A stretch of DNA of 64,000 nucleotides from Hyphomicrobiales bacterium (GTDB lineage: Bacteria > Pseudomonadota > Alphaproteobacteria > Rhizobiales > Aestuariivirgaceae): contig JANYLQ010000052.1 of assembly GCA_025363755.1 (NCBI GenBank), forward strand, positions 1 through 64,000, written 5' to 3'. The notes beneath the pieces were generated by a model that saw only the letters and a list, made by a program, of their open reading frames with translations, did not search any database and was not told where the DNA came from. Shown piece after piece: positions 6,167 through 52,783 of the stretch; the stretch's first letter is position 1; each line of letters opens with the position of its first letter. Both the position numbers and the translations under genes were made by a program.

Positions 6167-7030
6167 CTAAGTAGAACCTAATACTGCGACACCGCCGCTA
6201 ATCATGGCAATGCCCACCCATTGCGAAACGGTGGTTTTTTCTTTCAACAAAATCATCGCCAGCAAAGTGGCAATGGCGCCATAAGCACTGATGCCCATAG
6301 AGCCGAATTCCTTATTGGGCAGCCGCCCCATATAGTTGATTCCAGAAACCGCAGCCACATCAAAAGCCCCCATCGCAAAAATACCAATCCAAGCCTCAGC
6401 GTTGATTTTTGCGACATGAGGTTTCTCGCGCATCACAAAAGGAATGAGAACCAAGGCCGCCGGAAAGCGTGACATGAAAGTGGCTTCAAACTCTCCCACA
6501 TGTGCGGCAAGTTTTTGGCCAAGAATAACAGAGCTGGCGAAAAATACCTCGGCCACCATGCAAGAAAAAATAAGCAGCGGAATCTTGCCCGGCTTGACCT
6601 CGCTCAAACCTCCGTCGGAAGGGCCAGTCCGCGCCACGACGATGGCGCCAGTGATAATCGCCAAGACGGCACACCATTGCAAAGCGTTGGGTTGCAATCC
6701 ATTGATCATGCCCCAGATGACCACCAAAGCAGGATAACCCGCCGTTGCTGGTCCGACGATGGAAACTGGTGCCAAACTGAAAGCAGTAAACAAGCTACTG
6801 ATCGCGAGGCCGTAAAGGATCCCCAATATGACTGCAAGTTGCAGCGTTGCTGTGTCCGCTTGTAGGATCGTGCCATTCCAAAGTACAATGCCCGCCAGCA
6901 GAGCTCCGCCCGCCAAAAGTGTGCCAATCGCCATACGAACAGGCCCCACATCGTTTGCAAAATTACGCGCCAGCAAATCATGCAAAGACCAGCATAATGC
7001 AGCAAACAAACCAAACATAACGGCCAGCAT
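6167..7030 (-). CDS. EamA/DMT family transporter
   Basis: A 287-residue membrane protein built as two EamA repeats of about five transmembrane helices each (residues ~1-130 and ~150-285), the layout of drug/metabolite transporters. The second half carries the typical FGSMGISAYGAIATLLAMILLKEKT ending seen as a run of small residues before a KEKT loop. ATG 7030 is preceded by GAGGTG at a good distance. Substrates of the family range from amino acids and nucleobases to toxins and cannot be predicted. It is divergent from the serine dehydratase gene; a role in moving related amino acids is possible but is only a neighbour-based guess. Confidence 0.87.
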   Translation of the reverse strand: MLAVMFGLFAALCWSLHDLLARNFANDVGPVRMAIGTLLAGGALLAGIVLWNGTILQADTATLQLAVILGILYGLAISSLFTAFSLAPVSIVGPATAGYPALVVIWGMINGLQPNALQWCAVLAIITGAIVVARTGPSDGGLSEVKPGKIPLLIFSCMVAEVFFASSVILGQKLAAHVGEFEATFMSRFPAALVLIPFVMREKPHVAKINAEAWIGIFAMGAFDVAAVSGINYMGRLPNKEFGSMGISAYGAIATLLAMILLKEKTTVSQWVGIAMISGGVAVLGST

Positions 7031-7146
7031 AAAAACACCTCTAATCCTGTGTTAGCAGCCAGTCACTCTTCTAGCCATGACGGTTTTGCATGTTTCCATG
7101 ACTGGAATTGACAAGTACTCCAAACCCATGCACCTATGCTCTATCC

Positions 7147-8511
7147 ATGTTTCTTTCAGTCTTTGATCTCTTTAAAATTGGCATTGGACCATCTTCGTCC
7201 CACACCATGGGGCCAATGGTGGCGGCCAAGCGTTTTTTAGATTTGGTGAAAGCCAATGATATAAACGCTGTAACAAGACTAACTGCAACCTTGCACGGCT
7301 CACTGGCGTTCACGGGCAAAGGCCATGGCAGCGACCGCGCTATTGTGCTGGGGCTTGCGGGTGAAACGCCGCAAGATATTGACCCTGACGATGTAGAAAC
7401 GATTTTGATAAAAATGAATGAGGTAAAGATTGGCGCACGCCGTTTTGCCTTTGATCAAACCAAAGACATTATCTTCGATTTCGGCCCAGCTCTCAAAGGC
7501 CATGCCAACGGCCTGGTGTTTCGTTTGCTAGGCGATACGGGCAATATATTGCTCGAAGAAACTTATTACTCCATCGGTGGCGGCTTCGTGATGACAGCAG
7601 CCGAACGCACTGGCATCAAGCTTGTTCCATCCACACGCGTTGTGCCTCACCCATTTAAGTCAGCGATGCAAATGTTAGAAATGGGTAAAGCATCAGGTCT
7701 CACAATAGCGCAAATGAAGCACGCTAACGAGATCACGTGCCTCAGCGAAGTCGAGTTAAACAACGGCCTCGACCACATCTGGTCCACCATGAATGCCTGC
7801 ATCAATCGCGGGCTCAAAACGCATGGCATCTTGCCGGGCGGTTTAAAAGTAAAACGCCGTGCGGCTGATATTTTCGTAAAGCTCAAATCAGAGTATCGCA
7901 ACAATCAAATTCAGCCACATCAAATCATGGATTTTCTTTCGGTTTATGGCATGGCTGTGAATGAAGAAAACGCGGCAGGCGGAAAAATTGTAACCGCTCC
8001 CACCAATGGCGCGGCAGGCGTAGTTCCGGCCGTGATCCGCTATTATCTGGATCACTGCGTGGGCGCAGATCAAATCGGCATCCGCACTTTTCTGTTGGCT
8101 GCTTCTGCCATCGGTGGAATTATTAAACACAATGCATCAATTTCTGGCGCTGAAGTGGGCTGCCAAGGAGAAGTGGGTTCCGCCTCTGCCATGGCCGCCG
8201 CTGGATTATGCGCTGCATTGGGCGGTACAAATGAGCAGGTCGAAAACGCGGCCGAGATTGCCCTTGAACATCACCTCGGCATGACCTGCGATCCCATCGG
8301 TGGCCTCGTGCAAGTGCCATGTATTGAGCGCAATGCCTTTGGTGCGGTCAAGGCCGTCACCGCTGCATCGCTTGCCTTGCGCGGCGATGGCCAACATTTG
8401 GTGCCACTCGATAATTGCATTGAGACAATGCGTCAGACCGGGCTCGACATGAATGAGCGCTACAAGGAAACCTCAACGGGCGGCTTGGCGGTCAATGTCG
8501 TTGAGTGTTAA
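7147..8511 (+). CDS. sdaA: L-serine ammonia-lyase (single-chain, iron-sulfur)
   Basis: A 454-residue serine dehydratase converting L-serine to pyruvate and ammonia. It contains the beta-type domain ([20 protein letters not shown] at the N-terminus) fused to the alpha-type domain. Candidate [4Fe-4S] ligands are C339 (GCQGEVGSA), C381 (MTCDPIGG) and C392 (VPCIERNA), the family pattern. I take ATG 7147 because family proteins begin there. A TTG at 7108 in frame is part of a TTGACA element and would add 13 unconserved residues. No Shine-Dalgarno precedes 7147, so the message may be leaderless. The stop overlaps the convergent hrpB stop by four bases. Confidence 0.95.
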
Positions 8512-40302: not shown

Positions 40303-41238
40303 ATGATGAACAGCAATATTTTGGTTTTGGGTTATGGCGCGGTGGGCAAGGCCACGGTGGCAAGGTTACTGGCCGAAGGCCACAAGGTAACAGTTGCACA
40401 ACGCAGCAGGCCCAAGGATTTGCCACCAGAAGCGCAATTCATAACCTGCGATGTGTTGGATTTGGTTTCACTTAATGAGGCAACGAAAAATGCTCCTCAG
40501 ATTGTTGTGGCGTTAGGCTTTAAGTATGACGGAAAAGTATGGCGCGACGTTTGGCCCCGCGCGATGGCCAATTTAATCGAATCCTGCACTCAAGGCGGCC
40601 AGCGCATCGTCTTTATTGACAATCTATATATGTACGGTCCGCAGACCACGCCGTTGCGCGAAGATATGCCCTTGTCGAATTATGGTGCAAAACCCGCGAT
40701 CCGCGCTGACGTGACCAAGCTTTGGATGGCCGCTGCCGCCGCAGGACAAATCAAAATTGCAGCTTTGCGGGCTCCTGATTTTTATGGCCCGCATGTTGAA
40801 CTTTCACTTTGGGGGCCAGAAAGCTTGGGCGCTATTGCAAAAGGCAAAGCAGGCCGCATTCCCATGCCACTTAATATTCCGCATGACTTTGCCTATGTGC
40901 CAGATATTGCCCGCGCTGTCGTGACTTTGCTCAACGCACCTGATGATGCTTACGGGCAAGCTTGGCATGTGCCTGTAGCGCCAACGCGCACTGCAAAAGA
41001 GTTAATCAATATCGCTGAACAACACCTGGGTCGCAAAGTGAAAGTCTCATCTGTGTCGCCACTGATGTTGAAGCTGTTGGGCCTGTTCATTCCGTTCATC
41101 CGCGAATTCAATGAAATGAGTTTTAATTTCGACAAGCCCTATCACGTGGACGCAAGCAAGTTCAGCAAGCGCTTCTGGTCTGATGCCACAATCTTTGAAG
41201 TGGGTGTTGGAGCGACAGTGGACAGTTTTAAGGCTTAG
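40303..41238 (+). CDS. NAD(P)-dependent epimerase/dehydratase-like protein
   Basis: A 311-residue extended short-chain dehydrogenase. The Rossmann motif is [15 protein letters not shown] near residue 8, giving GxGxxG as in atypical members. The catalytic YxxxK is not in the canonical place; a tyrosine in DNLYMYGP and the [15 protein letters not shown] region replace it, so a non-enzymatic or reductase-like role is possible. Two ATGs (40303, 40306) follow AGGAG. It is divergent from the LysR gene, its probable regulator, and converges on lysS. Substrate unknown; relatives include nucleoside-diphosphate-sugar epimerases. Confidence 0.8.
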
Positions 41239-42850
41239 CCAACTCACCCTTCAGCGCCTTGTCAATTAATCCCCGCGTATTCCCCAAACCATAAAGCGCA
41301 GCAAACGATCCAAACCGTGGCCCACGTTCTTCGCCTAGTAACACTTGATACAGCATGTTGAACCACGTCTGGCCCACGCCGATGGTGCCATCTTTCTGCG
41401 TCACTGTGTAGGGTTCGCGCCGACCTATGTCGTACACTTTCTGCTGAATAGCTTCTGGTGTTGAGCCTTCAGGCAATTCTGCAAGAGCGGCATTGAGGTC
41501 AGTGAGTGCCTGTGCCTCATCCTCCGTACACGGACGATAGACCTTGTTGGGCTTTATGAAATCGAGATAATAGCGAATGGCATAGCCAACCATCTTGTCT
41601 AAGCGCGGATGGGTGCTGGCGTCCATTTCCGGCATGTAGCGCTTGAGGAAAGCCCAGAGTACCGACTTATCTTCGGTATTGGCGACCGATACCAAGTTGA
41701 GCAACAAGGCGAATGTCACACCGCCGGTTTCGGGCTTGGGCGGGTTGCCGCCATGAATATGCCACACCGGATTCATCAACTGGTCTTTGGGTTCGGTCTG
41801 CTTCAGGTAGCCGCCCAAATGCTGCGCATATTCATCAACCGCTCGCGGGATCACATCAAAGAACAATTTCTTGGCTTCGCGTGGGCGGTTATACATATAG
41901 AGGGAAAGTGAATCTGGATCAGCGTAGGTGAGCCACTCATCAATGGTGAGGCCATTGCCTTTAGATTTTGAAATCTTCTGACCTTTATCATCCAAGAATA
42001 ATTCATAAACATAATGCTCAGGCGCAATGCCGCCCAGAATTTCGCAATTGCGATCATAAATGGGTGCGTTGGATTGATGGTCCTTGCCGAACATTTCAAA
42101 ATCCACGCCTAAAGCTGCAAAGCGCATTCCGAAATCCGGCTTCCATTGCAGCTTGGTGCGGCCACCGCGCACATCGACTGTTGTTTCGGTTCCGTCTTCA
42201 TCATTGAAAGTGATGGTGCCTTTCTTGGCATCAATCGCCTTCATCGGCACATAAAGCACACGGCCTGAAATCGGCGAGATGGGTAGGAAGGGGGAGTAAG
42301 TGGCTTGGCGTTCTTCGCCAAGGCTGGGCAACATAACACCCATGATGTCATCATATTTTTCCAACGCGCGGATGAGCATGTCGTCATATTTGCCGGACTT
42401 GTAATAGTCCGTGGCCGAGCCGAATTCATATTGAAAACCGAACGTATCCAAGAAGCGGCGCAGCATCGCATTGTTGTGGTGGCCAAAACTTTCGTAATCG
42501 CCACCAAAGGGATTAGGCACCGATGTGAGGGGCTTGTGTAAATGCGGCTCAAGGAAAGATTTATCCGGCACATTATCCGGAATCTTCCGCATGCCGTCCA
42601 TGTCATCAGAAAACACCAGCAAACGGGTCGGCACATCAGACATGAGCTCAAAAGCACGGCGCACCATGGTGGTACGCGAGACTTCGCCAAACGTGCCGAT
42701 ATGCGGCAGACCTGACGGGCCATAACCCGTTTCAAACAAAACCGATTTCTGCCCAGACTTCTCCACCCGTTTTAAAATCTTCCGTGCTTCTTCAAAAGGC
42801 CAAGCCTTTGATTCTAAAGCGGCAGCGCGAAGTGCGGGAGAGACGGTCAT
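41228..42850 (-). CDS. lysS: Lysyl-tRNA synthetase, class I
   Basis: A 540-residue class I lysine-tRNA ligase (LysK type), the form used by archaea and many alphaproteobacteria. The HIGH-like PSGLPHIGT has its histidine at residue 50. KISKSKGNG, the KMSKS equivalent, is near 291. [17 protein letters not shown] is typical of the family. ATG 42850 gives the family-like start [21 protein letters not shown]; a TTG at 42910 would add 20 unconserved residues. No class II enzyme is seen in the window. Divergent from the DinG-like helicase gene. Confidence 0.96.
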
Positions 42851-42935
42851 TTCAGTTTTCCAGATAAAGTGTTGAGCGGCCTCTTTAGGCAGCGTGTGGA
42901 CTGTGGTCAATCGTGAGATTCGCCCCTATTAAGGC

Positions 42936-45770
42936 GTGGTGAACGCCCATGACCATAAATTCGTGCCCCCACCCACCGCCATCGGCTTGGGGTTAGGTGC
43001 TATTGTGTCTGGTGAGAAGCTGGGGGCCGCAGCGGCTTTGGCGAGACTGTCGGCTTCGCCACATCTCATTTGCCATTCGCATTTCTTGATCGAGCGACTG
43101 GGGGCATCTGCTTCAGCGCCCAAAAGCCTGATCCGTGCGGCAAGAGAACAGCGTCACTTCGATGTGGCTGAACTGTTTGCTTTTGTTGTCCCCGCCCGTA
43201 TCGCAACGCCCACACCTCTAGGCTTGGCGAGGTCATTGGCTGTTGAGCAATTGGCGAGCGACAGCGAAACCCTGCATGCGGTGGTGGATGATTTGTTGAT
43301 GCGTCTTTCCAACAAAAATTATCCGTTGCTGCGTGAGGCTGCTGAACTCGCCACATTTTTGGCGCGGGCCAATTGGCCTTGGGCAAAGCCAGTTATGGCC
43401 GCGTTGTTGACAGCCAATCCCAAGATGGATGTTGGTGGTTTTGCAACGGGCCTTAACGTGTGGGACCGCATTGAAGAATGGGAAGACGATGGCAGCCGAG
43501 CACCAGGCACACAGGAGGCCATTAGCGGTAATGATGCCAAGCGCTTCTTGGCGGAAATTCTGGGCAGTGATTCCGAAACCCGCGCGAGCCAAAGTGATTA
43601 CGCTGCCATGGCCACTCATGCGTTTGAACCACGCGACAGGAAAGACATCAATAATATTTTGCTCGCCGAAGCAGGCACGGGACTTGGCAAAACGCTGGGT
43701 TATTTGGCGCCATCATATTTATGGGCGCGCAAGAACAACGCACCGGTGTGGATCTCGACTTATACAAAAAATTTGCAGCGCCAGCTTGATCAGGAAACGG
43801 CGCGACTGGTGCAAGACCCGGCAGAGCGCCGCGAGAGCATTGTGATCCGCAAAGGCCGCGAGAACTATGCATGCTTGCTCAATATGCAGGAAGTGTTTGG
43901 ACGATTGACAGGCGCCAATGCACGCTCTGCTCTGCTCGCGGCATTAATTGCGCGGTGGGCCAGATTCTCACGTGATGGCGATATTGTCGGCGGTGATTTT
44001 CCGTCTTGGCTTTTGTCATTGTTCCAAGATGTTTCAATTGACGGCGAAGGGCGAGGCCTCACACCATCGGCGCTTGGATTGACTGACAGGCGCGGCGAAT
44101 GCATCTATGCGGGTTGCACGCATTACAAACGCTGCTTCATAGAGCGCTCAGTGCGGGCTGGGCGCAATGCGGATATTGTGATTGCCAATCATGCGCTGGT
44201 TTTGCACCAAGCGGCAATTGACCAAGCCATCGGCGTGGCCACAACACCAGATGAAGAAGCCGCACCTGGCGGCATCAGGCGGATTGTGTTTGATGAAGGC
44301 CATCATTTATTCGACGCAGCTGACAGTGCATTCTCAGGGCACTTGACGGCTATGGAAGCATCAGAACTGCGCCGCTGGCTGCGTGGGCCAGAAACAGAGC
44401 GTCGTCGTGGGCGGGGCCTTTCTGAACGCATTGGTGATCTGGTGACGGATCAAGACAACGCTGAAAAATTACTTCACCAAATATTGCGCGCGGCCACTGC
44501 GCTGCCAGGCCCTGGCTGGACACGGCGCATTCAAAGTGGTCAGCCTGAAGGTTCGGCAGAAGATTTTTTAACACTCGTGCGCCAGCAGGTTTTAGCGCGG
44601 TCGGAAGCTTCCAACAGTAATTCATTGGAGACTGATTGTTTGCCATTGGTGGATAAACTCTCGGATGCTGTTGCTGATCTATTATCTGCTTTGATGGATC
44701 TCAAAAAGCCAATGTCGGCGCTCGCCAATGTGTTGCTCAAAAAGCTTGATGATGAAGCATCAGAACTCAACACCAATGACCGTGGCCGCATTGAAAGTTT
44801 GGCGCGTTCATTAAAGCGCCGTGGCGAACTTGTGGTGGGTGGCTGGATTTCAATGCTCAATCATTTGCTGGAAAGCCCTGATGCGTTGTTTGTCGATTGG
44901 TTTTCAATTGATCAAAGTTTTGGCCGCGAGGCGGATGTGGGCCTGCACAGCCACTGGATTGATCCAACTGTGCCGCTGGCCAACACCGTGTTGCGTTCAG
45001 CCGATGGCATCATCGTAACCTCTGCCACGCTCAAAGACCGCCCGCCCGACGTGCCCGATGATTGGACCAATGCCGAGATGCGCACGGGTGCCATTCATCT
45101 GCCCTATCCCGTCAAACGCGCCGGCTATGACTCGCCCTTTGACTATAAAAAAATTAGCCGCGTGATTGTGGTGACCGATGTGAACCGCGAGGACATGGAC
45201 CAGATTGCCGCCGCCTACCGCGAGCTGTTTGTTGCATCAGGTGGCGGCGGACTTGGTCTTTTCACGGCTATTGCAAGATTGCGCGCCGTGCATAAACGCA
45301 TCGCTCAACCGCTGGCTAAAATCGGCCTGCCACTTTATGCCCAACACGTTGACCCAATGGATACAGGCACACTCGTCGATATGTTCCGCGCCGAGCGGGA
45401 TGCATGTTTGCTCGGAACTGATGCCGTGCGTGATGGTGTGGATGTGCCCGGAGATTCACTGCGGTTGATCGTTCTTGACCGTGTGCCGTGGTCAACACCG
45501 ACGATTTTGGAACGCGCCCGGTCGGAAGCGTTTGGTGGCAATGCCTATAAAGATATGTCGGTGCGTTTAAAATTGCGCCAAGCTTTTGGCCGCTTGATCA
45601 GGCGCGAGGGAGACCGTGGTTGCTTTGTTATTCTTGATCCACGCTTGGCCACCCGTTTCACGACCGCCTTTCCGCCCGGCATTCAGATTGACCGATTGGG
45701 ACTGGTGGATGCAATTGACATCGTAAAATCTTTCACACCAAAACTGGACAAGATGGCGCGCGACCATTAG
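42936..45770 (+). CDS. DinG/XPD-like ATP-dependent DNA helicase with Fe-S cluster
   Basis: A 944-residue superfamily 2 helicase. An N-terminal region of ~240 residues has no motif I recognise. Walker A AEAGTGLGKT is at 245-254 and the DEGH box at 452. Four cysteines, C313, C389, C394 and C400 (CIYAGCTHYKRC), sit between them as in the iron-sulfur domain of DinG/XPD. VTSATL and the C-terminal GRLIRREGDRG motif VI follow. It should unwind DNA 5'-3', clearing R-loops, G-quadruplexes or damaged forks. It starts 28 bases before the TerB-like gene, heading a four-gene set with the Lhr-type helicase and PdeM. Confidence 0.92.
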   Translation: MVNAHDHKFVPPPTAIGLGLGAIVSGEKLGAAAALARLSASPHLICHSHFLIERLGASASAPKSLIRAAREQRHFDVAELFAFVVPARIATPTPLGLARSLAVEQLASDSETLHAVVDDLLMRLSNKNYPLLREAAELATFLARANWPWAKPVMAALLTANPKMDVGGFATGLNVWDRIEEWEDDGSRAPGTQEAISGNDAKRFLAEILGSDSETRASQSDYAAMATHAFEPRDRKDINNILLAEAGTGLGKTLGYLAPSYLWARKNNAPVWISTYTKNLQRQLDQETARLVQDPAERRESIVIRKGRENYACLLNMQEVFGRLTGANARSALLAALIARWARFSRDGDIVGGDFPSWLLSLFQDVSIDGEGRGLTPSALGLTDRRGECIYAGCTHYKRCFIERSVRAGRNADIVIANHALVLHQAAIDQAIGVATTPDEEAAPGGIRRIVFDEGHHLFDAADSAFSGHLTAMEASELRRWLRGPETERRRGRGLSERIGDLVTDQDNAEKLLHQILRAATALPGPGWTRRIQSGQPEGSAEDFLTLVRQQVLARSEASNSNSLETDCLPLVDKLSDAVADLLSALMDLKKPMSALANVLLKKLDDEASELNTNDRGRIESLARSLKRRGELVVGGWISMLNHLLESPDALFVDWFSIDQSFGREADVGLHSHWIDPTVPLANTVLRSADGIIVTSATLKDRPPDVPDDWTNAEMRTGAIHLPYPVKRAGYDSPFDYKKISRVIVVTDVNREDMDQIAAAYRELFVASGGGGLGLFTAIARLRAVHKRIAQPLAKIGLPLYAQHVDPMDTGTLVDMFRAERDACLLGTDAVRDGVDVPGDSLRLIVLDRVPWSTPTILERARSEAFGGNAYKDMSVRLKLRQAFGRLIRREGDRGCFVILDPRLATRFTTAFPPGIQIDRLGLVDAIDIVKSFTPKLDKMARDH

Positions 45771-45798
45771 GTTTTATCTCTAACGCAAGGAACTAAAA

Positions 45799-46212
45799 AT
45801 GCCCGGCACGATCTCTAATCAACAAGCCTTAATTTATGTCATGGTCATGATGTCCGCCGTCGAAGGTCGCATCAGTACCGATGAGTTGCAGGAAATTGAA
45901 TTGCTGCTGCGCACCTTGCCAGCTTTTAAATCTTTTGATCGTTCAAGGCTGGTGACTGTTGTGCAGGAATGCAGCGATATTTTGCAAAATGAAGAGGGCA
46001 TGACCACGGTGTTGGGGTTGGTGAACAATCAACTGCCCGCGCGCTTCAAAGAAACCGCTTATGCGTTGGCTGTTGAAGTGGCGGCTGCGGATTTGGTCGT
46101 GGGGCGTGAGGAATTGCGTTTCTTGGCTATTCTGCGCGATGCTTTGGGCTTAGATAAACTGGTCACGGCGGCAATTGAGCGTTCGGCGATTGCAAGATAT
46201 CAGGCGGTGTGA
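45799..46212 (+). CDS. TerB-family protein
   Basis: A 137-residue all-helical protein matching the TerB fold: an N-terminal helix with YVMVMMSAVEGRISTDELQEIELLL and a second acidic copy, YALAVEVAAADLVVGREELRFLAIL. Acidic positions in both repeats are where TerB proteins bind metal. It has no membrane segment. AAGGA precedes the ATG, and its stop overlaps the GTG start of the Lhr-type helicase (GTGA). TerB domains occur in tellurite resistance and phage-defence contexts; its role between two helicases is unknown. Confidence 0.88.
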   Translation: MPGTISNQQALIYVMVMMSAVEGRISTDELQEIELLLRTLPAFKSFDRSRLVTVVQECSDILQNEEGMTTVLGLVNNQLPARFKETAYALAVEVAAADLVVGREELRFLAILRDALGLDKLVTAAIERSAIARYQAV

Positions 46213-48683
46213 ACGCAATTCTCCCTTCTACTTTTACCAATTGGTTCGCCTCACGCGGCTGGGAACCCCGTGCGCACCAACTGCAAATGTTGGCGCATGG
46301 CCTCGACAATGAAAGCGCTTTGCTTATATCGCCCACGGGCGGCGGCAAAACTTTGGCGGGCTTTCTGCCGACACTCGTTGATCTCGAACACCCACATAAA
46401 AATCATGGCATACACACACTTTATATTTCGCCACTGAAAGCGCTGGCGGTTGATATCGCTCGCAATCTCGAAGCGCCGATCAATGAAATGAAACTGCCGA
46501 TCACAGTTGAAACTCGAACAGGCGATACGCCGCATTCGAGGCGGCAGCGTCAACGCATCAACCCGCCTGATATTTTGATCACCACGCCCGAGCAGATGAC
46601 GCTTCTGATCGCTGATCCCACCGCAGCGCATTTGATGAAAAATTTGAAGGCCGTGATCATCGATGAACTTCATTCCATTGTCTCGTCAAAGCGCGGCGTA
46701 CTTTTATCACTTGCTTTGAGCAGGTTACGCACCCATGCTCCAAACGCACGCTTCACAGGATTATCCGCTACCGTGGCTGACCCTGATGCATTGCGAAGTT
46801 GGCTTGCGCCTGCAAACAAGCCGCCCGTGCCGCTGGTTCTAGGCACAGCAGGTGCGCCGCCTGATATTCATATTCTGGAATCTGCAGAACGCGTTCCATG
46901 GAGCGGGCACAAAGCGCTTTATGCTATCCCTGAGATTTATGCCGAGATCAAAAAAGCTAAAATGGCCTTGGTGTTTGTTAATACCCGCAGCCAAGCCGAG
47001 ATGGTGTTTCAGGAATTATGGAACGCCAATGAAGATCATCTACCCATAGCGCTCCACCACGGCTCGCTCGATGTTAGCCAGCGCCGTAAGGTCGAAGCGG
47101 CCATGGCGGACAATAAACTCAAAGCTGTGGTTTGCACCTCAACACTGGATTTAGGCATTGACTGGGGCGACGTTGATTTGGTCATCCATGTGGGCGCACC
47201 CAAAGGCTCAAGCCGCTTGCTGCAGCGTATTGGCCGCGCCAACCACCGCTTGGACGAAGCCAGCAACGCCATTTTGGTGCCCTCCAATCGCTTTGAAGTT
47301 TTAGAGTGCGAAGCCGCCCGAGCTGCCGCCAAAGAAAACGCTCAAGACACCGAATATCCGATGGTGATGAAGCTCGATGTTTTGGCCCAGCACATCATGG
47401 CCTGCGCGTGTTCGGGGGCATTCTTTGCCGACGACCTCTACAACGAAATTATCACCGCCTTCACCTACCGCAAGCTCACGCGGGAACGCTTTGATCAAGC
47501 TTTGGATTATGTGGCCACTGGTGGATATGCCCTGAGAGCCTATGAACGCTATGCCAAATTAAAGTTGGATATTGCGGGTAAATACCGCCTCGCCCACCCG
47601 ATGTTAGCAACACGCTACAAAATGAATATGGGCACAATTGTTGCTGATGAAATGCTGAAGGTCAGGCTCGCTTCTGTCAAAAACCGCACGGGCAAGCGAA
47701 CTGTCACGGGTGGCCGTGTGTTGGGTGAACTGGAAGAGTATTTTTTAAGTCAACTGGCCATCGGCAATACGTTTCTTTTCGGTGGCGAAGTTTTAAAATT
47801 TGAAGGCCTGGATGAATTTGGCGCATTGGCTTCAAAAACCCATGGCCGCGACCCGATGATCCCATCCTATGCTGGCGGCAAATTTCCACTCTCTACTTAT
47901 TTGGCCGAGCGCGTACGCGGGCTGCTGGCGGATAAATCTAAATGGCAACATCTGCCAGCCCAAGTAAAAGACTGGCTGAATACGCAAAGCTGGGCATCGG
48001 CAATCCCGCGCGCCGATCAGATGTTGGTCGAAACTTTCCCACGTGCTGATAAGCATTATATGGTCTGCTACCCCTTCGAGGGCCGCCTTGCACAACAGAC
48101 ATTGGGCATGCTGCTCACGCGCCGTCTTGAACGCTGGGGTGCAAAGCCCATGGGCTTTGTGTCATCGGAATATGCGCTGGTGATCTGGTGTCTTGGTGAT
48201 GTGTCAGCAATGATCAAACAGGGCCGCCTCTCACTCGCCAAACTATTCGACGAAGACATGTTGGGTGATGATCTTGAAGCCTGGCTTGCCGAATCCAATT
48301 TGATGAAACGCAGCTTCCGCTATTGCGCTATTATTGCAGGGCTGATTGAACGAAACTTCCCAGGCAAAGAAAAAACCGCAAGGCAAGTGACCGTCAACAC
48401 TGATTTGATTTACGACGCGCTTCGCACCCATCAGCCTGATCACCTGCTATTACGTGCCGCATGGGATGATGCCGCTGATGGCTTGATTGATATTCACAGA
48501 TTGGCCGCCATGTTGAAACGTATCAAAAACCAAATCCTCCACAAAGCCTTGGAACGCGTCTCACCACTGGCTGTTCCGGTACTGCTTGAGATTGGCCGCG
48601 AATCAATTTACGGCGAAGCCGATGATGCCCTTCTCGCCGAAGCCGCTGATAAACTTGAAGCCGAGGCCACCAGCCTTGTCTAG
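46209..48683 (+). CDS. Ligase-associated DEXH-box helicase (Lhr-like)
   Basis: An 824-residue helicase of the bacterial Lhr subgroup linked to ATP-dependent DNA ligase, exonuclease and PdeM in DNA-damage operons. Motif I SPTGGGKT is at 39-46, DELH at 152-155 (IDELHSI), STLDLGIDWGD and QRIGRANHR are motifs V and VI. A winged-helix region and the Lhr C-terminal beta domain follow. It starts with GTG inside the TerB stop and overlaps the pdeM start. The partner ligase and exonuclease genes are not in this window. Confidence 0.93.
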   Translation: MNAILPSTFTNWFASRGWEPRAHQLQMLAHGLDNESALLISPTGGGKTLAGFLPTLVDLEHPHKNHGIHTLYISPLKALAVDIARNLEAPINEMKLPITVETRTGDTPHSRRQRQRINPPDILITTPEQMTLLIADPTAAHLMKNLKAVIIDELHSIVSSKRGVLLSLALSRLRTHAPNARFTGLSATVADPDALRSWLAPANKPPVPLVLGTAGAPPDIHILESAERVPWSGHKALYAIPEIYAEIKKAKMALVFVNTRSQAEMVFQELWNANEDHLPIALHHGSLDVSQRRKVEAAMADNKLKAVVCTSTLDLGIDWGDVDLVIHVGAPKGSSRLLQRIGRANHRLDEASNAILVPSNRFEVLECEAARAAAKENAQDTEYPMVMKLDVLAQHIMACACSGAFFADDLYNEIITAFTYRKLTRERFDQALDYVATGGYALRAYERYAKLKLDIAGKYRLAHPMLATRYKMNMGTIVADEMLKVRLASVKNRTGKRTVTGGRVLGELEEYFLSQLAIGNTFLFGGEVLKFEGLDEFGALASKTHGRDPMIPSYAGGKFPLSTYLAERVRGLLADKSKWQHLPAQVKDWLNTQSWASAIPRADQMLVETFPRADKHYMVCYPFEGRLAQQTLGMLLTRRLERWGAKPMGFVSSEYALVIWCLGDVSAMIKQGRLSLAKLFDEDMLGDDLEAWLAESNLMKRSFRYCAIIAGLIERNFPGKEKTARQVTVNTDLIYDALRTHQPDHLLLRAAWDDAADGLIDIHRLAAMLKRIKNQILHKALERVSPLAVPVLLEIGRESIYGEADDALLAEAADKLEAEATSLV

Positions 48684-49347
48684 GCAGCATAAAATTATGC
48701 TTGGCGGCTTGGAGCTTTTGCCGCATCTTTCGGGCGCACTTTATGTGCCCGCATATGAAACCTTGATCATTTCCGATTTACATTTGGAGCAAGGCACCAG
48801 TCTCGCGCGGCGCGGTATCCATGTGCCACCCTTTGATACAGCAGTCACACTTGACGTGCTTGACGCAACACTCAGCACCACACACGCAAAGCGTCTAATT
48901 TTTCTTGGCGATAGTTTTCATGATACGCAAGGCGAAGAACGTTTAGATGAAACTCATCTCAGTCGCTTGCGCATCATCACCAATCAGTATGAAACCTTGT
49001 GGATCATAGGCAACCACGATCCACATCCGCCGCAATCCTTGGGCGGACATGGTGCCGAAACAATCGCATTAGGCCCGCTCACCTTGCGCCATGAGCCAGC
49101 CAAGAAATTGAAAAACGAAATCGAAATTGCAGGCCATCTTCATCCCGGTTGTGGTCTAAGCCTGCGGGGGCGACGGGTTCGGGGTAAATGCTTTATAGCG
49201 GATCAAACAAGATTGATCATGCCGGCTTTTGGTGCTTACACGGGCGGGCTTTCAATAAATTCAGATGCCTTCAAAGGTCTTTTTGATTTTGAGCAAACCA
49301 AAATTTGGATGATTGGAAAAAGCAGTTTGCACCGCTTTTCCCTTTGA
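48676..49347 (+). CDS. pdeM: Ligase-associated DNA damage response endonuclease PdeM
   Basis: A ~223-residue calcineurin-type metallophosphoesterase. Metal motifs are visible: ISDLHLEQG (D-x-H), FLGDSFHD (GD), IGNHDPH (GNHD) and GHLHPG (GHxH). I choose TTG 48676 because the first beta strand (SRQHKIMLGG) belongs to the family and GAGG lies 9 bases upstream; ATG 48697 would remove part of it, and starts further up lie deep in the helicase gene. It overlaps the helicase by 8 bases. It converges on the PodJ-like gene 5 bases away. Confidence 0.9.
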   Translation: MSRQHKIMLGGLELLPHLSGALYVPAYETLIISDLHLEQGTSLARRGIHVPPFDTAVTLDVLDATLSTTHAKRLIFLGDSFHDTQGEERLDETHLSRLRIITNQYETLWIIGNHDPHPPQSLGGHGAETIALGPLTLRHEPAKKLKNEIEIAGHLHPGCGLSLRGRRVRGKCFIADQTRLIMPAFGAYTGGLSINSDAFKGLFDFEQTKIWMIGKSSLHRFSL

Positions 49348-49352
49348 TAATT

Positions 49353-52300
49353 TTAGCCCGTCTTCGATTCCATGGCAGCAATCAGTTCAGGCGTAATTTG
49401 CCCTGTCACCTTCATGCCTTGTTGAAGTTGAAATAACCGAACAGCGTTTGAAGTGCGCCCGCCTAATTTTCCATCGGCTTCACCAATATTATAGCCAAGC
49501 TGATCTAAAAGACCTTGTGCTTTACCGATTATGTTTTGTGGCGCAGCCGAAGCATTTTGTTGTGGTGCTGCATTAGCGCCCTTCCAAGTGGTATCATTGA
49601 CTGCAACGACATTGGCAATATCAGGCGCCTTTTCCGGTGCCCAAGTTTTCAGCCGCGCTTCAATCGCCTTGACTGAGTCGGGTGGCAATGATTTTGCCAG
49701 TGCATCAGCATGTGTCTTGGCGTCTTGGTCGCCTTGCGCGGCTGCCGCATCATACCAGAACAGAGCTTCGGCCAAATTCACCTTGGTACCCATTCCGCGT
49801 TCAGTCAAAACCGCCAAATTGAACTGGCTGTCTTTCAGACCATGCTGCGCAGCAAGCATGAACCATTTAAATGCGCGCGGATAATCAGGAGCACCAGCAT
49901 CATTGCCTGCAGAAATAACAGCGGCATTATGCATGGCTTTCACATTGCCAAGGGCTGCAGCACGCTCATACCAAGACAGTGCAGCTTGCATATTTTTTTC
50001 AACGCCCGTGCCGCGCTCATAAAGTGTGGCCATGCGGTATTGCGCCGGGGCTAAACCCGTAACGGCGGCTCGCCCATACCAATAGGCAGCCTTGGCGGCA
50101 TCAGGTGCTACATTCTCACCATTGAGATAACGTGTCGCAATGACAAACTGTGCATTGGCGTCACCTGAAGATGCGGCTTTGCGTAAACTGTCATTGCCGA
50201 CTGCGATATCAAGGACGGTTGGTGCTACGGATTTGGATGCAGCAGCGGCTGGAAGTGATCCTGTTAGAATTGGATCAACTTCTGGACTTGTGCCGTTTTC
50301 GCTATGCTGCTGCGGTGTCGCGGCGGCAGCTGGAGTCTGTTCAAGCGGGGCTGGTTCCACAGCCTGCGGAGCGGGCACAGGTTGGGCGGTCGTGCTAGCG
50401 TCTGGTGCAATTGCTGCAGGTGCAATTGGTGCAGGGGCAGCTTGAGGTACAGGTTGAACGGGTTGCTCAATCGCAACAGGTTCGGCCATTGGTGCAACAG
50501 CTTGCTGTCCCATCATGTTTTTGGTCACATAGAATGCAACCAAGCTCAAGGCCAAAAGCCCTGACAGGATCAATGTGCGGCGGCTGCCAGTCACATTGCT
50601 ATTAGCAGGCTTAATTTCGGGCGGTATTTTCAATTCGCCAGGAAGTGCTGCATTCGCAGGAGCCTTAGCACTCTTCTTGAAAGGCATTCTAAAGCTCAGT
50701 AGTTTTTTCGAGCCGTGATCAGTCTTTTTGTGAGCGCCGGGCGTTAGACCAGAAAGGATATTTTTCTGGCCACCGCTAGCGGCCTGTGCAGCTTTACGCG
50801 CTGCAGCGATAAAGTCATCGGGTGCAGCAGGGCTGGCCTGCGCCTCGCCTGCGCCACGCGCGGCTTCGATGACGGCATCAAAGGGATTGTGACCAGCAAA
50901 ACCAGCAAATGACGCATCATTAAAAGGGTTATCGCCTGGATTGGGGTAAACATTTTCAGGTTCAACTTGAGTCGCTGTGAACTCGGGCGGTGTTGCTACA
51001 CTTTCAACAAAAATGCTTGGGTTAGGATCAACGGCGGCGGTCTGGAACGGGTCGTTATCAAAAACAGATGCAACCGGGGCTGCAGCCTGTGCAACGCGCT
51101 GGCCAATTGCAGCAGTTTCAAGTTCGTTGAGTTTAGCTACAATTTGTTCAAGCGTTTCATGAACTGCTTCAAGTGTTTCTTGATTGCGTTGATCGGCCCC
51201 ATGAGAAGCCTCACGCACTGCTTTAAGGCCTTCTTCCAGAGCTACAATTTCCGGAGAACCAGCAACAGAAACAAGGCCTTGCGGCTGATGGCTCATCACT
51301 TGTTGGCCCATGCGGTTTGCGGCATCTTCCGCCACTTGCTTGGTCCAATCGCGGTTTTGTTCCATTGAGTCGTAAAGCTGGGCGATGGCCCGTTCAATGG
51401 TTTCGAGATGCGAAAGTTGATGTTCGGTCTTGCTCAAACGGTCATTGACCACGGCCAAATGATGGACAAGTTCACCGCTGTTCTGCGACGCTGGGTTTTG
51501 CGTATTTAGTGCTTGCTCTAAGCGGTGATCAAGTTCGGCCATGCGCCGTTCAAGTTCATTAAACTGCGGCAATTCCCGCGCTTGGGCCTGAGTCTGTTCC
51601 AGCTTTTGCGTAATGTCGATAAGGCGGCGGTCCATATCCGCCAGGGGCCGTGTATCTGGGCCTTGTGCAACACGGGTGGAAAGCTGTTCAACCGCTACAC
51701 GAAGGGCCGTCACGTCACGGTCAGAGGCAGTGCCCTTGCTGGCATCATCAATACGTGAATTTAGTTTTTCAATCTCGCCACGGAAGCGCTGAATTTCGGC
51801 AGGGCTGGTGGAACTGGCTACCATTGAAGTTTGTGCTTCGCGGAGCAGACCAAGAATGCGCTGCTCAATGACACGAAGTTCTGCTTGGCTGGCCTGCACG
51901 GCTTGGGTTTGGGCTTTATGTGCCAGTGACTCAGCTGTATCCCGCACATTTTCAATACGGCCCGCAAGATCATCAAGTTCGCGGCGCAATAAATCAGGAA
52001 GGCCAACAACGGGTTGGCTCTGGCTTTGATCGATGCGCTGTGCAAGTTCAGACAAACGATTTTCAAGGGCTGAGAAAGCAGGCGCTTGGCGGAGCACCTG
52101 CTCGTTATTTGTATTTGACGCCCGCGTTGACATATCGCCAATGCGGTCTTGTAATGATTTCAGATTATCGCGTGTGCGCTTTTCTGAAACTTCCAAATGC
52201 TCAACAATATTACGCACGGCTTTTTCAAGCGCCAAGAAGCCAGGTGATTCTTCTGGCTTAGGCGTTACGACTGGTTGGGCGCGTTGAAATTGCCGACCTA

Positions 52301-52700
52301 AAAGGGCCAGTCGCTCATTAACAGCGGTGAATGCCTCAACGGTCTGGCGTTCATTACTTTCAACGCGGCTGAGAATTCGCGCAAAGTTACCATTTTCTTC
52401 TTGCGGCGGCGAAACATAACGCGGCGCAGTTTCAGTTTCACGCATTGCCAAACGTGAAAGCTGTTCGGCAATATCTTCAAGACGTGTGGCCGCACGTTCA
52501 ATCGGATGGGTTGAAATCCGGCCAGCAATCACCTTATCTGAAGACGCAGCTGTTTCAGAAGCAGGAGCTTCAGCCTGTTCATTGATTGCAGAGTTCAGCC
52601 ATTCCCCCAAAGTCATGCCCGAGCGGCGCGCCGCTGTTTTGGCAATCTCGCGCAATTCAGGCTCAACACCCTTAACGCTCCATGGAATTCCTGGCTTCAT
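49353..52700 (-). CDS. PodJ-like polarity protein: coiled coil, TM, Sel1 repeats, peptidoglycan-binding domain
   Basis: A 1115-residue bitopic protein. The N-terminus PWSVKGVEPELREIAKTAARRSG with LGEWLN is a short conserved domain of this family. Residues ~60-560 are mostly heptad-like coiled coil. A Pro/Ala-rich stretch surrounds one transmembrane helix near 708-727 (LILSGLLALSLVAFYV). The periplasmic part has about four Sel1/TPR-like repeats (~843-993) and a C-terminal peptidoglycan-binding domain (~1053-1110). This order matches PodJ of Caulobacter and its rhizobial homologues, which organise a cell pole. I prefer ATG 52700 (GGAGAG upstream) to ATG 52772, whose GGGGA is only one base away. 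Confidence 0.88.
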   Translation of the reverse strand: MKPGIPWSVKGVEPELREIAKTAARRSGMTLGEWLNSAINEQAEAPASETAASSDKVIAGRISTHPIERAATRLEDIAEQLSRLAMRETETAPRYVSPPQEENGNFARILSRVESNERQTVEAFTAVNERLALLGRQFQRAQPVVTPKPEESPGFLALEKAVRNIVEHLEVSEKRTRDNLKSLQDRIGDMSTRASNTNNEQVLRQAPAFSALENRLSELAQRIDQSQSQPVVGLPDLLRRELDDLAGRIENVRDTAESLAHKAQTQAVQASQAELRVIEQRILGLLREAQTSMVASSTSPAEIQRFRGEIEKLNSRIDDASKGTASDRDVTALRVAVEQLSTRVAQGPDTRPLADMDRRLIDITQKLEQTQAQARELPQFNELERRMAELDHRLEQALNTQNPASQNSGELVHHLAVVNDRLSKTEHQLSHLETIERAIAQLYDSMEQNRDWTKQVAEDAANRMGQQVMSHQPQGLVSVAGSPEIVALEEGLKAVREASHGADQRNQETLEAVHETLEQIVAKLNELETAAIGQRVAQAAAPVASVFDNDPFQTAAVDPNPSIFVESVATPPEFTATQVEPENVYPNPGDNPFNDASFAGFAGHNPFDAVIEAARGAGEAQASPAAPDDFIAAARKAAQAASGGQKNILSGLTPGAHKKTDHGSKKLLSFRMPFKKSAKAPANAALPGELKIPPEIKPANSNVTGSRRTLILSGLLALSLVAFYVTKNMMGQQAVAPMAEPVAIEQPVQPVPQAAPAPIAPAAIAPDASTTAQPVPAPQAVEPAPLEQTPAAAATPQQHSENGTSPEVDPILTGSLPAAAASKSVAPTVLDIAVGNDSLRKAASSGDANAQFVIATRYLNGENVAPDAAKAAYWYGRAAVTGLAPAQYRMATLYERGTGVEKNMQAALSWYERAAALGNVKAMHNAAVISAGNDAGAPDYPRAFKWFMLAAQHGLKDSQFNLAVLTERGMGTKVNLAEALFWYDAAAAQGDQDAKTHADALAKSLPPDSVKAIEARLKTWAPEKAPDIANVVAVNDTTWKGANAAPQQNASAAPQNIIGKAQGLLDQLGYNIGEADGKLGGRTSNAVRLFQLQQGMKVTGQITPELIAAMESKTG

Positions 52701-52783
52701 CGACTTTAACTCTCCGGCGTGAGAAGAGGGTGGTTGTTCAATAGACAAATCACCCGCAACACGGTTTTTCATTCCCCAGAGTG

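Follow-up and report, generated by a model that had tools for sequence, protein, structure and literature searches.

A DinG-like helicase and TerB gene beside the ligase-associated Lhr-PdeM pair in an alphaproteobacterium: probable juxtaposition by loss of a MATE gene

Do four closely spaced genes that read like one operon form one functional unit? The question is raised by a 64,000-nucleotide stretch of DNA from a Hyphomicrobiales bacterium of the family Aestuariivirgaceae (positions 1 to 64,000 of the forward strand of contig JANYLQ010000052.1, assembly GCA_025363755.1; hereafter the window), in which genes for a DinG-like helicase, a TerB-domain protein, an Lhr-core helicase and the phosphoesterase PdeM follow one another. 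All four lie on the plus strand, and DinG and TerB are separated by a 28-base gap and TerB and Lhr share a GTGA overlap, as an initial annotation had described (Table 1). That annotation had viewed the array as a candidate repair or defence module in which DinG and TerB take the place of the ligase and exonuclease of a known repair set. We consider it likely that the array instead comprises two functionally separate gene pairs, DinG-TerB and Lhr-PdeM, which were juxtaposed by loss of a MATE gene that lay between them. Its parts are ordinary; its junction is unusual.

Two gene pairs and the junction between them

Lhr and PdeM are the helicase-phosphoesterase half of the ligase-associated repair set, as had been proposed; Lhr matches TIGR04121 with 1099 bits against a cut-off of 850, and PdeM matches TIGR04123 with 207 bits against a cut-off of 150. 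The other half, said to be missing, is indeed missing from the window, but both of its genes are found on another contig of the same genome (3.23 Mb in 64 contigs). In particular, the exonuclease gene lies at 9371-10345 of contig C1 (TIGR04122, 447 bits), and its end is overlapped there by the gene for the ATP-dependent ligase (TIGR04120, 727 bits), whereas the Lhr-PdeM locus is on contig C15. The ligase-associated set is thus complete in this genome, divided between two loci. In a survey of 61 genomes the helicase was found above its cut-off in 51 and the exonuclease in 33, all of them within the 51. The 18 relatives that carry the Lhr-core helicase without the ligase-associated exonuclease (some of these assemblies are incomplete) suggest that the helicase and PdeM may be able to work alone.

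We read the junction between the two pairs from tblastn maps in 37 genomes of the same genus, with classes assigned by eye and contig ends taken into account. A MATE gene on the opposite strand (PF01554, 108 bits in the single copy scanned) lies between DinG/TerB and Lhr in 21 of the 37, of which G006 was counted by inference, since its MATE gene is cut by the ends of two contigs. In eight genomes (G000, G002, G003, G013, G022, G028, G031 and G033) the MATE gene is gone and the genes run head to tail, the assignment of G022 being inferred from a pair of contigs, each with an end in a flavin mononucleotide (FMN) reductase gene. The two pairs are apart in six (G005, G008, G010, G016, G017 and G023; the class of G008 is based on 1.5 kb of flank), with the MATE gene still beside Lhr in all of these except G016. 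Two junctions (G001 and G026) were not assignable to a class. A position of DinG and TerB directly beside Lhr is therefore mostly not kept even within the genus, contrary to what the initial annotation would lead one to expect, and among the 37 genomes the GTGA overlap occurs only in the window species and in G003, its 97% sister.

One of the joined relatives retains traces of the intervening gene. The 0.5 kb that separate TerB from Lhr in G031 contain an N-terminal piece of MATE (49 residues, 69% identity), and inspection by eye of this gap (about 6808-7250 of locus L048) reveals the C-terminal end of MATE with internal stops and with the middle of the gene gone. The MATE gene of G031 has, to judge from these pieces, decayed in place, which supports the reading that the two pairs were juxtaposed by loss. 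The junction of the window, where no remnant could be told apart, would have arisen by MATE loss too. On a DinG tree of the genus the joined state requires 5 changes; note that this tree was made quickly and has long outgroup branches, and that the count of changes alone does not distinguish gain from loss.

Unrelated genes have entered the array as well. In six genomes from one part of the genus an FMN-reductase gene (PF03358, NADPH-dependent) is found between DinG and TerB or in place of TerB (loci L043, L045, L046, L047, L061 and L062 of G020, G027, G036, G021, G033 and G022, respectively).

DinG, TerB and Lhr across the class and the competing explanations

TerB, DinG and Lhr were searched for in 385 sampled genomes of the class, that of the window included, and were found in 168, 211 and 132 of them, respectively. 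Positions were used, where listed, from 149 of the 168 TerB genomes, 149 of the 211 DinG genomes and 128 of the 132 Lhr genomes; the window's own genome was excluded from the distances, and three Lhr rows below the cut-off (G068, G202 and G382) were excluded from the position analysis. None of 87 placed genomes has TerB within 1 kb of Lhr, and one of 86 has DinG that close (G338, on opposite strands), so that the survey of co-occurrence by which the module was to be checked did not find either gene kept beside Lhr outside the genus. Consistent with this, Lhr is inside the fetched stretch in only 4 of 80 named DinG loci. (These are the best 80 of at least 594 stretches, many of them cut by contig ends; their titles are mostly alphaproteobacterial, with L077 and L148 given only as Proteobacteria and L103 and L106 as Candidatus Marinimicrobia bins.)

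The part of the module proposal that stands is that DinG and TerB are true neighbours far beyond this genome; the part that falls is that the four genes are one unit replacing ligase and exonuclease. One could go further and suppose that DinG together with TerB constitutes a genuine functional unit of two genes across the Alphaproteobacteria, with TerB as a dedicated regulator or loading partner and with the link to Lhr-PdeM incidental. This explanation, which we regard as possible if on the doubtful side, is compatible with juxtaposition by MATE loss and differs from it in the weight given to TerB. It draws on the finding that 82 of the 111 placed genomes have TerB no more than 5 kb from DinG, always downstream and on the same strand (at 63-259 bases in 58 of the 111 and within 5 kb in a further 24), TerB being farther away on the contig of DinG in 9 and on another contig in 20. 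Moreover, the two genes are both present in 143 of the 385 genomes, with an odds ratio of 12.5 that drops to 3.5 (p 0.014) within Lhr-positive genomes, and of 45 named loci that have 5 kb of sequence on each side, 19 have no gene for lysyl-tRNA synthetase (LysS) within 5 kb; TerB lies within that distance of DinG in 7 of these and in 16 of the 26 with LysS, a difference that is not significant.

However, LysS, whose role is unrelated, is an equally steady neighbour: 45 of the 80 named loci have it in divergent orientation no more than 3.5 kb from DinG, and 37 have TerB downstream within the same distance. Because of this, inherited gene order could explain the proximity of DinG and TerB. Each gene is also lost without the other, since 68 of the 211 DinG genomes lack TerB and 25 of the 168 TerB genomes lack DinG, and in the window's own order TerB is present in 22 of 24 genomes from outside the genus and DinG in 3, with TerB then often beside LysS. 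Furthermore, a transporter gene on the opposite strand stands between DinG and TerB in five named loci (L092, L097, L102, L121 and L129; PF03547 in the three copies scanned), and a DinG-TerB fusion was not seen, every listed gap being positive.

A bolder proposal, and an unlikely one, is that DinG-TerB is an undescribed alphaproteobacterial helicase-partner pair in which TerB gates an iron-sulfur (Fe-S) helicase by metal or redox state, and that its recurrent joining to Lhr-PdeM was selected because it lets two damage-handling helicases be expressed jointly. No description of the DinG-TerB pair was found among the papers listed in searches of the open-licence PubMed Central (PMC) literature, and a prior description elsewhere is possible. 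A genetic link between DinG and TerB, if true, would provide a concrete partner for TerB, a protein of unsettled role.

That all four genes constitute one repair or stress module, their joining having been selected and TerB and DinG preparing substrates for Lhr-PdeM, seems to us very improbable. The single direction and tight spacing of the four genes, including 13 bases between the stop of Lhr and the probable ATG start of PdeM, speak for such a module, as does the number of changes on the genus tree, according to which the joined state is recurrent (or repeatedly lost). Yet the arrangement is not conserved beyond the genus and is found in only 8 of 37 genomes within it, and the joined genomes are not uniform: three of the eight (G013, G022 and G033) gave no TerB match, in G002 DinG and TerB lie 3.5 kb apart, and a 97-codon open reading frame (ORF) is interposed between TerB and Lhr in G028. 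(Note that TerB absences in fragmented genomes may be assembly gaps, as in G026, where a contig ends inside DinG.) Moreover, joining follows automatically once the single intervening gene is lost.

Several observations nevertheless weigh against juxtaposition by MATE loss. Seven of the eight joined genomes have no MATE remnant that is separable from the antisense of Lhr; most matches in the remnant search were antisense of the start of Lhr, because some of the query ORFs extend past the start of MATE, and only the piece in G031 could be placed in MATE itself. The joined state is scattered across the tree, and selection for co-expression is a possible cause of this. In addition, the spacing of the genes in the window appears tight enough for a single transcript, and in the class DinG, TerB and Lhr are found together more often than chance would give, an excess that is smaller within Lhr-positive genomes. 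We nonetheless favour loss of the MATE gene, and the reading of the array as a new repair or defence module is corrected accordingly: loss of a single gene can make two gene sets resemble one operon. The part worth pursuit is the DinG-TerB neighbourhood, which is widespread in Alphaproteobacteria yet unexplained.

Features of the locus and proposed roles of its products

Table 1. Features of the locus in window coordinates, with the two flanking genes.
Feature	Position	Strand	Basis or remark
DinG-like helicase of the XPD/DinG family, superfamily 2 (SF2), 944 amino acids (aa)	42936..45770	+	ORF, Helicase_C_2, structure match; start probably GTG 42939
TerB-domain protein, 137 aa, all-helical	45799..46212	+	PF05099, structure match
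GTGA in which the stop of TerB and the GTG start of Lhr overlap	46209..46212	+	sequence
Lhr-core DEXH helicase of the ligase-associated set, 824 aa	46209..48683	+	TIGR04121; DEAD_assoc, WH_Lhr
PdeM phosphoesterase of the ligase-associated set	48697..49347	+	TIGR04123; start probably ATG 48697
LysS, lysyl-tRNA synthetase class I	41228..42910	-	context; in many relatives lies divergently beside DinG or TerB
Sel1-repeat/peptidoglycan-binding protein	49353..52772	-	context; convergent neighbour of PdeM

GTG 42939 is the more likely start of DinG because the sister G003 carries an ATG at the same place. For PdeM, the mechanical ORF list gives an upstream TTG at 48586, which is probably not the start; the match to TIGR04123 begins at 48703.

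The DinG-like protein matches Helicase_C_2 with 77.4 bits, and its predicted structure has a predicted local distance difference test score (pLDDT) of 89. Cysteines C313, C389, C394 and C400 of the Fe-S cluster are present in all 42 aligned relatives, in which Walker A (GTGxGKT), the DEAH-type box (DEGH) and motif VI (QxxGRLxR) are likewise invariant. The N-terminal part of the protein was examined for an exonuclease. An RNase_T-type family was not found among 25 listed of the 26 Pfam families matched in these 42 members, and one member has a weak match (E 0.059) to RVT_3, which we take to be an RNase-H-like family. DEDD is a catalytic motif of exonucleases, and in the alignment of the 42 members D76 and E79 are kept but no DEDD-type set of residues is conserved, for which reason residues 1-190 probably represent a degenerate exonuclease-like domain without catalytic residues. 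Of note, the DinG-like gene has an in-frame stop in G032 and G035 and is split into two matches in G026 and G033, which could be due to assembly error or decay.

The TerB-domain protein scores 26.9 bits with PF05099, above the gathering cut-off of 24.4 although weakly so, and a comparison with the sequences in the PDB returned no match at E<=0.01. Its predicted structure (pLDDT 86) consists of seven helices and resembles both 2ou3, a COG3793 tellurite resistance protein (Z 11.7, root-mean-square deviation (rmsd) 3.7, 122 residues aligned), and 2h5n, a solved TerB-like protein (Z 9.8). Paired acidic positions of TerB are linked to metal binding. The acidic residues pointed out in the initial annotation are present, and each of the 12 aligned rows keeps D/E22, E29, D98, E104 and E105. 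Of 259 sampled genomes of the phylum, for which the number falling outside the class is not stated, 31 carry this TerB subfamily, all of them listed under the window's own class.

If the two pairs are functionally separate, their products might act as follows. The DinG-like helicase would most likely unwind problem structures that arise from conflicts between replication and transcription or from damage, with TerB as an accessory protein that is perhaps responsive to a metal or ligand and that would be dispensable in many lineages. Lhr would open damaged duplex, PdeM would then cut single strands, and the exonuclease-ligase pair encoded on contig C1 would complete the repair. Loss of the MATE gene in the lineage of the window would have set the start of Lhr onto the stop of TerB, so that the four genes may now be co-transcribed.

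Searches for regulatory signals covered promoters, terminators and the LexA box, which in Alphaproteobacteria is GTTC-N7-GTTC. Promoter prediction gave one promoter-like site, on the minus strand, compared to 5.0 in shuffled sequences, and terminator prediction gave 7 terminator-like sites compared to 9.5. An exact match to the LexA box is absent from the plus strand of the window, and SOS control of the four genes was rejected. The reverse complement, GAAC-N7-GAAC, occurs at window positions 600 and 23688, far from the four genes, and possibly represents LexA boxes of minus-strand genes. Of the 36 loci in the genus set, two of which belong to other families, 9 have the motif near the start of DinG. 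These nine sites were rejected as LexA boxes because they coincide with a purine-rich stretch that precedes the start of a divergent dienelactone-hydrolase gene (PF01738). Of the 80 named loci, 4 have the motif near the start of DinG and none has it in a control segment taken from within DinG. In loci L099 and L139, where it precedes the DinG match by about 190 bases, it looks plausible as a LexA box.

Comparison with known systems

The DinG-like protein shares with the DinG/XPD family its Walker A motif, DEAH-type box, motif VI, Helicase_C_2 domain and four cysteines. Five DinG/YoaA-type NCBIfam models match it, in each case, however, below the cut-off of the model. Its predicted structure aligns with E. 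coli DinG (6fws) over 620 residues through a common helicase core (Z 35.8, rmsd 5.4), and residues 4-936 align, loosely, with S. aureus DinG (8zef; Z 30.4, rmsd 9.6, 745 residues aligned), a structure named a 3'-5' exonuclease by its depositors.

TerB has been proposed as a ligand-sensing component in Ter systems (PMC7824862). The TerB considered here differs in being stand-alone, next to DinG or LysS, and among the six proteins scanned (LysS, DinG, TerB, Lhr, PdeM and the Sel1 protein) no further Ter gene was found.

As for defence systems, PMC10250203 describes Shango as a TerB-like protein together with an ATPase and a DEAD/DEAH helicase, and a table in a review places TerB in Shango and Bunzi (PMC10952713). 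The array resembles Shango in pairing a TerB-like protein with a helicase: Lhr matches the PADLOC models of SngC (233 bits) and BrxH (235 bits), and the DinG-like protein matches typeIV_DinG, a generic DinG model, with 321 bits. The helicase models are broad, however, and Lhr is far nearer to its ligase-associated equivalog model than to SngC. With regard to the CasDinG of type IV CRISPR systems, the DinG-like protein scores 47 bits with csf4 of NCBIfam against a cut-off of 400, and no csf family is among the six proteins scanned. The 12 TerB rows gave no match at E<=10 to the PADLOC models of known TerB-carrying systems, Shango included, in a search in which the HMMER filters drop most weak matches. 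An antiphage system related to Shango is hardly credible for this locus, since the pairing of a TerB-like protein with a helicase is offset by the repair affiliation of Lhr, by the unmatched TerB models, by the lack of a third ATPase as counterpart of the Shango ATPase among the six proteins scanned, and by a LysS-TerB neighbourhood that is common to other families of the order. A defence role for the four genes, to which the suggested resemblance of TerB and the helicases to stress or defence systems had pointed, is not supported by these sequence comparisons, which were confined to the array and its immediate neighbours.

The closest known counterpart of half of the array is the ligase-associated (LHR) set, which consists of a ligase (TIGR04120), an exonuclease (TIGR04122), a helicase (TIGR04121) and PdeM, also named MPE (TIGR04123), all four of which are present in this genome above the curated cut-offs. 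PMC8301817 reports a metallophosphoesterase gene near the bacterial Lhr-core gene in 276 of 319 genomes. Lhr and PdeM are likewise adjacent in the window. PMC10140301 describes LigB with the Lhr helicase and nucleases as typically an operon, the exact role of which is unsettled, and the same gene set is treated in similar terms in PMC10799422. In the genome described here, the helicase-PdeM pair is apart from the exonuclease-ligase pair, whereas the set usually forms one cluster, an arrangement that we take as usual rather than as a requirement. Moreover, the helicase-PdeM locus of the window differs from the known set in that it has DinG and TerB immediately upstream.

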